DNA of 41,468 bases. It comes from Acidobacteriota bacterium (GTDB taxonomy: Bacteria; Acidobacteriota; Terriglobia; Terriglobales; Acidobacteriaceae). Below the pieces are notes generated by a model. It saw only the letters and a program-made list of their open reading frames with translations. It had not been told where the DNA came from and made no database searches. The position numbers and the translations under genes are program-made. Shown here piece after piece: positions 12,862 through 13,045 of this stretch. Each line of letters opens with the position of its first letter. Within the stretch, counting starts at the first letter, position 1. The DNA is taken from positions 1 to 41,468 of the forward strand of contig JAJZGG010000015.1 in assembly GCA_021804965.1 (NCBI GenBank). Direction: 5' to 3'.

Positions 12862-12891
12862 TTGACGCTGGCTGCGTCCACCGGTCATACT
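12862..12891 (+). promoter_or_regulatory. Candidate promoter of the met leader transcript
   Basis: TTGACG (12862-12867, five of six matches) and CATACT (12886-12891, four of six) with an 18-base spacer, starting 18 bases after the tRNA. The -10 ends seven bases before the leader ORF start at 12899, so the transcript would begin at or very near the ATG. Confidence 0.5.
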
Positions 12892-12898
12892 GTTTCCG

Positions 12899-12976
12899 AT
12901 GAAGACGATGTGCCAGTCCGGATCGCTCTGTTGCATGTGCATGTGCATGTGTCGCGGATCCGTGCCGCTGGCGTAA
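12899..12976 (+). CDS. Met/Cys-rich leader peptide upstream of metY-metX
   Basis: A 25-codon ORF (ATG AAG ... TAA). Its product has six cysteines (5, 11, 12, 14, 16, 18) and five methionines (1, 4, 13, 15, 17), with the central run [11 protein letters not shown] second in-frame ATG lies at 12908. There is no Shine-Dalgarno sequence, but the promoter places the 5' end next to the ATG, so leaderless translation is plausible. The next genes make homocysteine, the precursor of methionine. A terminator-like hairpin begins 34 bases after its stop. This is the arrangement of an attenuation leader sensing charged tRNA-Cys and/or tRNA-Met. The GCATGT hexamer repeat at 12933-12950 could yield the Met-Cys run by chance, so the call is a strong inference. 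Confidence 0.6.
12919..12962 (+). other. Leader hairpin around the Met/Cys codons, exclusive with an antiterminator pairing
   Basis: CGGATCGC (12919-12926) can pair with GCG-GATCCG (12954-12962) with one bulged G, enclosing the Cys/Met codons. The overlapping GTCCGG (12916-12921) is the exact complement of CCGGAC (13013-13018), the 5' arm of the downstream terminator. The two pairings cannot coexist, as expected of an attenuator switch. Confidence 0.45.
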
Positions 12977-13009
12977 CGCTGCAGCTTCCACAGGCAGCAT
13001 CCCCAGATT

Positions 13010-13045
13010 GGCCCGGACCCCTGAGTGGTTCGGGCCTTGTTGTTT
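13010..13045 (+). terminator. Attenuator-like terminator before metY
   Basis: The ten-base stem GGCCCGGACC (13010-13019) with GGTTCGGGCC (13027-13036) has one G-T pair and a seven-base loop, followed by TTGTTGTTT. It lies between the leader ORF and the metY ribosome site, so it would act as an attenuator rather than a gene-end terminator. Confidence 0.65.

Follow-up and report, generated by a model that had tools for sequence, protein, structure and literature searches.

A short reading frame rich in methionine and cysteine codons, followed by an intrinsic terminator, lies directly ahead of the metY and metX genes in the DNA analysed here, a stretch of 41,468 nucleotides from a member of the Acidobacteriaceae that is referred to below as the window. 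Very probably this arrangement is a real attenuator, and what is new about it is the Met plus Cys leader, found before several sulfur operons and in two phyla. Comparison of the sequences makes it likely that we are dealing with a ribosome-mediated transcription attenuator which senses charged tRNA-Met and charged tRNA-Cys together; attenuation as such, taken apart from the joint sensing of the two amino acids, can be held with high confidence. The leader, its codon bias, the promoter spacing, both stems and the association with sulfur genes are apparent when many leaders are compared.

The leader and its surroundings in the window

The 25 codons of the leader frame (Table 1) comprise six for Cys and five for Met, the start Met counted, in agreement with an earlier note on this DNA. 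The same note placed nine Met/Cys codons within ten positions; this was a miscount, the actual cluster consisting of eight out of eight consecutive codons. When the window was simulated 100 times with a first-order Markov model, the richest run of eight codons contained four Met/Cys codons in 42 cases, five in 54 and six in 4, and the eight of eight present in the real sequence were never matched (maximum 6/8). The runner-up stretch of the real window, near 9831-9840, reaches 6/8. One mark of an attenuator, a short upstream ORF enriched in codons for the amino acid of the operon, is found at metY.

The two downstream genes, which had already been taken for metY and metX, both reach NCBIfam cut-offs; the leader peptide itself belongs to no NCBIfam or Pfam family according to a profile search. 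At gathering score the tRNA-Gly gene is the sole Rfam match in the window, and neither a SAM riboswitch of any class in Rfam 15 nor a T-box gave a covariance-model match there. A plasmid search returned distant metY-like DNA only. Directly upstream of the tRNA-Gly gene, at 11791-12731, lies a pair of genes for an Xre-like antitoxin and a RES-domain toxin.

Table 1. Coordinates of the features discussed, in window positions
Feature	Position	Strand	Basis or remarks
tRNA-Gly(CCC)	12770-12844		upstream of promoter and leader
-35 box TTGACG	12862-12867	+	1 promoter-like site vs 0.1 expected from shuffles; such a box and spacing are seen in most of 67 leaders
-10 box CATACT	12886-12891	+	18 nt spacer; box ends 7 nt before ATG; start site predicted
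Leader ORF with Met/Cys codons	12899-12976	+	25 codons; stop codon at 12974
Predicted sensor codons TGT TGC ATG TGC ATG TGC ATG TGT	12929-12952	+	8/8 Met/Cys
Predicted antiterminator 5' strand (region 2), directly past the sensor codons	12956-12967	+	fold; own-versus-swapped pairing; covariation
Predicted antiterminator 3' strand (region 3), shared with terminator 5' arm	13009-13019	+	fold; covariation
Terminator hairpin GGCCCGGACC-CCTGAGT-GGTTCGGGCC	13010-13036	+	fold energy; covariation in relatives
T-rich tail of terminator	13037-13045	+	
metY, O-acetylhomoserine sulfhydrylase, gene proposed to be controlled	13116-14441	+	NF006096 and TIGR01326 above cut-off
metX, homoserine O-acetyltransferase, overlaps metY stop	14438-15589	+	NF001209 above cut-off

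Conservation of the leader upstream of metY

The metY gene was looked for in 61 relatives and in named contigs, and each locus was scored by the best 8-codon Met/Cys stretch of a short ORF at most 500 nt upstream, with the start codon uncounted and a threshold of at least 4. The assignment of these loci to the family is based on those relatives whose contigs carry a name, e.g., Terracidiphilus gabretensis (L040). The leader had been expected to recur in relatives, which it does: 43 of 45 close Acidobacteriaceae homologues (at least 71 % identity, a set without L023-L027 at 52-56 % identity and without the duplicates L031 and L043) reach the threshold, as compared to 2/45 on the reverse strand. 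Of the two misses, L013 is truncated at a contig end, and in L018 metY lies behind a homoserine dehydrogenase gene and has no leader. Four of the loci L023-L027 have enough upstream DNA to be judged, and the Met/Cys leader is absent from all of them (L023-L026, 52-55 % identity), including L026 from the same family. In the Gemmatimonadota, 13 of 30 metY loci score at least 4 (reverse strand 0/30), with the parts in the same order; these are the best 30 of 40 places, the seed genome among them (L198 is the L078 locus). Outside these two groups the figure is 4 of 52 metY loci against 3/52 on the reverse strand, in a set that includes L051 and L087, Acidobacteriota of other families, but not L062 (devoid of upstream DNA) or the Gemmatimonadota loci L063 and L078. 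An exact pattern search in 396 genomes across the phylum matched nine genomes, with four backward-control matches; four of the nine lie outside the family, L162 being the only case of a leader and terminator before metY. In the Anaerolineales locus L074, a short ORF rich in Cys (LCCPTCAMC) is seen together with a strong terminator about 260 to 90 nt before metY. This is possibly the same device in the Chloroflexota.

The clusters of 52 metY leaders (codon means without L013, L078, L063, L048, L042 and L039) contain 190 ATG, 86 TGC and 61 TGT codons, and are Met/Cys-dense by construction because they were located by that density. The repeat is interrupted in variants like CMSMRMPMC, CMCCTCMC and MAMCMQMCM, which nevertheless retain Met and Cys; read across these leaders, the cluster is coding sequence and not a DNA repeat. 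Adjacent Met residues are rare, 39 distinct clusters containing 4 MM pairs versus 48.8 in shuffles (minimum 35 in 5000). In the list of clusters, the Met codons keep an MxMx order even when the partner is not Cys. This order may reflect common descent, and it may have a function of its own.

Promoter and start of the leader transcript

For 67 leaders, the best-scoring promoter was taken from the 140 nt upstream of each cluster. A well-scored promoter was obtained in 58; it ends exactly 7 nt before the leader start in 36 of these and 6-9 nt before it in 48, where the leader start is the first in-frame ATG, GTG or TTG past the -10 box, a rule that favours short distances but not specifically 7 nt. 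The letters between the -10 box and the leader start differ among leaders. Since promoters end 6-9 nt before the leader start, a leaderless leader mRNA is predicted, and the window transcript probably begins with the A of the leader ATG or with an adjacent nucleotide. A 5' end near 12899, as the earlier note had it, is indeed what the promoter spacing in relatives predicts. In the two Gemmatimonadota leaders looked at, the spacing is 8 nt (L078) or a good promoter is missing (L063). Those Gemmatimonadota leaders that lie behind a riboswitch (see below) cannot be leaderless if the riboswitch promoter is common to both.

Terminator and antiterminator

The terminator hairpin with its T-rich tail, already recognized in the earlier note, is real: the hairpin folds with -20.1 kcal/mol (z -3.12), and an intrinsic terminator is present between the leader ORF and the first gene. 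In all 68 leaders the called terminator starts past the leader stop, at a distance of 18-40 nt with one outlier at 118, the pairing partner lying upstream of the leader stop by construction as it was searched for only there.

In the window, the predicted antiterminator has 10 pairs, with A12958 bulged and 12963/13013 unpaired. Shuffled sequences fold as well (z -0.02), swapped arms give on average a stronger duplex (-20.1) than the window's own arms (-16.7), and the window is among the 19 of 64 leaders whose own pairing does not surpass the row mean. Since the window antiterminator by itself is unremarkable, the case for it is carried by the relatives. Among 38 aligned metY leaders, hand-chosen from 68, the antiterminator is paired in 82.1 % of cells versus at most 57.3 % when slid, and its covariation score is 0.233 versus 0.168 (sd 0.016) after shuffling, with 0/500 shuffles reaching this value. 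Two further measures are weak, namely the antiterminator pairs changed on both sides (5 of 7 versus 3.5 shuffled, 67/500 shuffles being as high) and the pair types (45/500 as high). The terminator is paired in 90.9 % of cells in the same 38 leaders and scores 0.290 versus 0.167 for covariation. The alignment of relatives, envisaged earlier as a check, thus finds both stems covarying.

An alignment-independent swap test gives the same answer for region 2. Here, the segment past each cluster was paired with its own terminator arm and with those of other leaders, using 20000 permutations. The mean duplex energy with the own arm is -19.7 versus -17.1 (sd 0.35) for 64 leaders, a set from which L101, L150, L146 and L045 of the 68 were left out because their terminator call looked wrong by eye; it is -28.3 versus -22.8 (sd 1.0) for 13 Gemmatimonadota leaders, and -20.4 versus -15.8 (sd 0.74) for 19 representatives with dissimilar arms, L171 and L172 being kept despite mis-called terminators. 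No permutation out of 20000 was as good in any of the three sets. The 45 nt before the cluster, which include GTCCGG, have no preference for their own terminator, the permutations as good numbering 18073, 2960 and 11744 out of 20000 for the 64, 13 and 19 leaders, respectively. Shuffles and permutations alike leave shared ancestry in place. A mutually exclusive antiterminator that uses the 5' arm of the terminator is accordingly found on the leader set, and weakly in the window alone.

Leaders upstream of other sulfur genes

An exact search for ATGTGYATGTGYATG in 300 genomes of the family yielded 47 places in 42 genomes versus 9 for the backward control. A leader with terminator precedes cobA (above the NCBIfam cut-off) with cysD downstream in L120, cysD itself in L123 (where the protein exceeds the TIGR02039 cut-off), L136 and L137, an ATP-grasp gene in L132-L134 and, in L140, the gene of a binding protein of the SsuA family (above cut-off), with that of an SsuC-like permease (partial, below cut-off) coming next. 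The ATP-grasp gene of L132-L134 is RimK-like, and in L132 and L134 a luciferase-family oxygenase gene comes next. The nearest NCBIfam model for this oxygenase is SfnG, far below cut-off and on a partial sequence; the ATP-grasp/luciferase-family pair is perhaps an organosulfur pathway. In L143 (1450-1900), a Met/Cys leader and terminator stand directly before a tRNA-Cys gene (1608-1683), and behind the latter another Met/Cys leader, equipped with a terminator of its own, precedes a small Cys-containing protein. L135 resembles a cysD leader truncated where its contig ends. Twelve pattern matches devoid of a leader-like context were set aside (L112, L121, L122, L128, L130, L131, L141, L142, L154, L157, L158 and L159).

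The cysD leaders of relatives are Cys-heavy, e.g., MARSSHIMACCCLSNIFDGCIY. Eleven of 30 cysD loci reach the automatic score, while reading 20 of the 30 by eye led to 16 peptides that could be verified in the DNA; two confirmed leaders, L169 and L180, come from another family. L181 retains only a degenerate leader remnant, and L170 and L184 are without an assigned leader. The mean Met fraction of Met+Cys is 0.60 in 52 metY leaders versus 0.19 in 19 cysD leaders (the 16 confirmed ones plus L120, L136 and L137 from the pattern matches), with a P of 9e-10 that should not be taken at face value since the cysD leaders were partly picked by eye, and the comparison also carries near-duplicates (L164, L136, L137) and shared ancestry. 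By eye, the cysD leaders L173-L179, L182 and L183 have in common a hairpin of the type CCTGTCGA...TCGACGGG directly past the Cys codons. A CACCCG further along (CATCCG in L182) is a potential partner for the 3' strand of this hairpin. These leaders could have the textbook 1:2, 2:3, 3:4 layout. L173-L176 and L183 gave no Rfam match at gathering score.

Riboswitches in the Gemmatimonadota

The SAM_alpha riboswitch (SAM-II, RF00521) was found at gathering score in three of 17 loci scanned (16 Gemmatimonadota plus L074). In these three, L204, L210 and L211, it is followed by a Met/Cys leader, a terminator and metY, and L213 has a match below gathering score, also upstream of metY. This order suggests tandem control of metY by SAM and by Met/Cys in Gemmatimonadota.

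Proposed mechanism and alternatives

Stalling, termination, the signal sensed and the direction of the response are what we infer from these elements. Transcription would start at the leader AUG or directly beside it. With Met and Cys in ample supply, the ribosome would reach the stop codon, which falls within the loop separating region 2 from region 3; the two regions would then fail to zip up, the terminator would form and transcription would end. A shortage of charged tRNA-Met or tRNA-Cys would make the ribosome stall within the sensor codons, leaving region 2 free to pair with region 3, which would destroy the terminator and allow metYX to be transcribed. The geometry of stalling follows from the general footprint of the ribosome. 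In many relatives the leader stop lies about 30 nt past region 2, so that a ribosome having reached it would sit on the loop rather than on region 2, which makes this step weaker than in trp. Similar devices with other Met:Cys ratios would act before cysD, cobA-cysD, the ssuA-type operon, the ATP-grasp/luciferase-family pair and one tRNA-Cys gene. Taken together, these leaders could represent a leader-peptide sulfur regulon in which the Met:Cys codon ratio of each operon sets the shortage that is answered, Met-heavy before metYX, Cys-heavy before cysD and mixed before the organosulfur operons and tRNA-Cys; the riboswitch before some Gemmatimonadota metY leaders would put SAM, Met and Cys inputs in series. 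For this combined picture we see the chances as about evenly balanced.

A real attenuator might also sense Met only before metYX, the interleaved Cys being filler or an inherited repeat. Met is certainly the steadier half of the metY leaders, where MRMPMC, MAMCM and MAMCMYMMYM keep MxMx with little Cys. However, Met is most often partnered by Cys (147 Cys versus 190 Met codons), and the Cys-heavy leaders before cysD make Cys codons look like sensors in sister leaders, so that we consider Met-only sensing unlikely, if still worth bearing in mind. A good deal less probable is an effect of the nascent peptide itself, which would bind a metal via Met/Cys or halt the ribosome when triggered by a metabolite such as SAM. 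Such a role would account for Met residues that almost never touch, a strict spacing for which simple tRNA sensing has no need, but the N-terminal part of the leaders varies widely, the similar part past the cluster is accounted for by RNA pairing and the associated genes are sulfur genes.

In the earlier note, a ribosome stalled on the Cys or Met codons was taken to cover 12954-12962 and thereby to free GTCCGG (12916-12921) as the antiterminator strand. The complementarities it described, CGGATC/GATCCG and GTCCGG/CCGGAC, do exist in the window, but the specific alternative fold found no support in the three swap tests, in which the segment past the cluster, and not the one before it, prefers its own terminator; moreover, given the usual footprint of a ribosome, stalling at the first sensor codons would cover GTCCGG rather than free it. 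We regard this fold as very improbable. As the swap tests favour the segment past the cluster, stalling need not cover an arm and would leave the downstream arm free, as in trp. Finally, a chance hexanucleotide repeat (ATGTGC)n next to an unrelated terminator deserves hardly any credence: the window copy does resemble a DNA repeat, but the reading frame, the synonymous Cys codons, the non-repeat variants, the promoter spacing and the covarying stems all speak against it. An attenuator sensing Met and Cys jointly is therefore the reading we prefer.

Relation to known systems

Leader-peptide attenuation, leaderless Cys leaders and leaders for two amino acids are each known singly. Attenuators of the trp/thr/ilv type may sense more than one amino acid, the thrL leader sensing Thr and Ile together. 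The present device shares with them a leader ORF with sensor codons, an antiterminator strand after these codons and an intrinsic terminator before the operon, and differs in the predicted sensing of Met and Cys, in a leader mRNA that is apparently leaderless in Acidobacteriaceae and in a stop codon placed in the antiterminator loop. In mycobacteria, leaderless poly-Cys sORF attenuators before sulfur genes were reportedly described by Canestrari et al. in 2020. The likeness lies in the Cys-codon leader before sulfur genes, with a spacing of 7 nt between -10 box and ATG here; in contrast, a run of consecutive Cys codons is missing here, Met alternates with Cys, and an intrinsic terminator is present. 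SAM-II (SAM_alpha, RF00521) likewise represents RNA control of met genes, whereas sensing here would go through codons.

According to the available part of a 2005 survey, mycobacterial cys operons have no conserved terminator hairpin, and in Actinobacteria Cys leaders lack obvious terminators and nothing conserved was seen for methionine operons (PMC1262725). The closest case in print is metL of Streptomyces lividans, MSTTSDRTPATEATTTPGARCMCRRMCAF, which contains CMCRRMC and precedes metNIQ; the accessible text describes it as a methionine-dependent leader with several methionines and threonines and without a typical Rho-independent terminator (PMC8079986). It is leaderless, as the present leaders are predicted to be, and likewise has Met and Cys codons before methionine genes, but concerns one species, and joint sensing of Met and Cys is not proposed in that text (PMC8079986). 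The novelty claimed in the earlier note has to be narrowed correspondingly: a leader that mixes the two codons had a precedent in metL, while joint Met+Cys control of several operons stands as new with respect to the text available (PMC8079986). The Rhodobacterales leader uORFC-8-2 upstream of cysS, with two tandem Cys codons and a terminator, is similar as a proposed ribosome-mediated attenuator of a Cys gene with an intrinsic terminator, and differs, as far as the text at hand goes, in relying on Cys only, in its gene and in its phylum (PMC8632094). Full-text searches, whose coverage mostly excludes subscription papers and is partial for those included, revealed no Met+Cys leader described for Acidobacteria or Gemmatimonadota.

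Significance for sulfur metabolism

If the proposed attenuator is true, several sulfur operons of the Acidobacteriaceae would be under a control that reads codons, and the short unannotated ORFs upstream of metY and cysD would be accounted for. Nature would then have supplied a series of leaders whose proportion of the two sensor codons changes from one controlled gene to another, and the weighing of two amino acids by a single attenuator could be put to a direct test.
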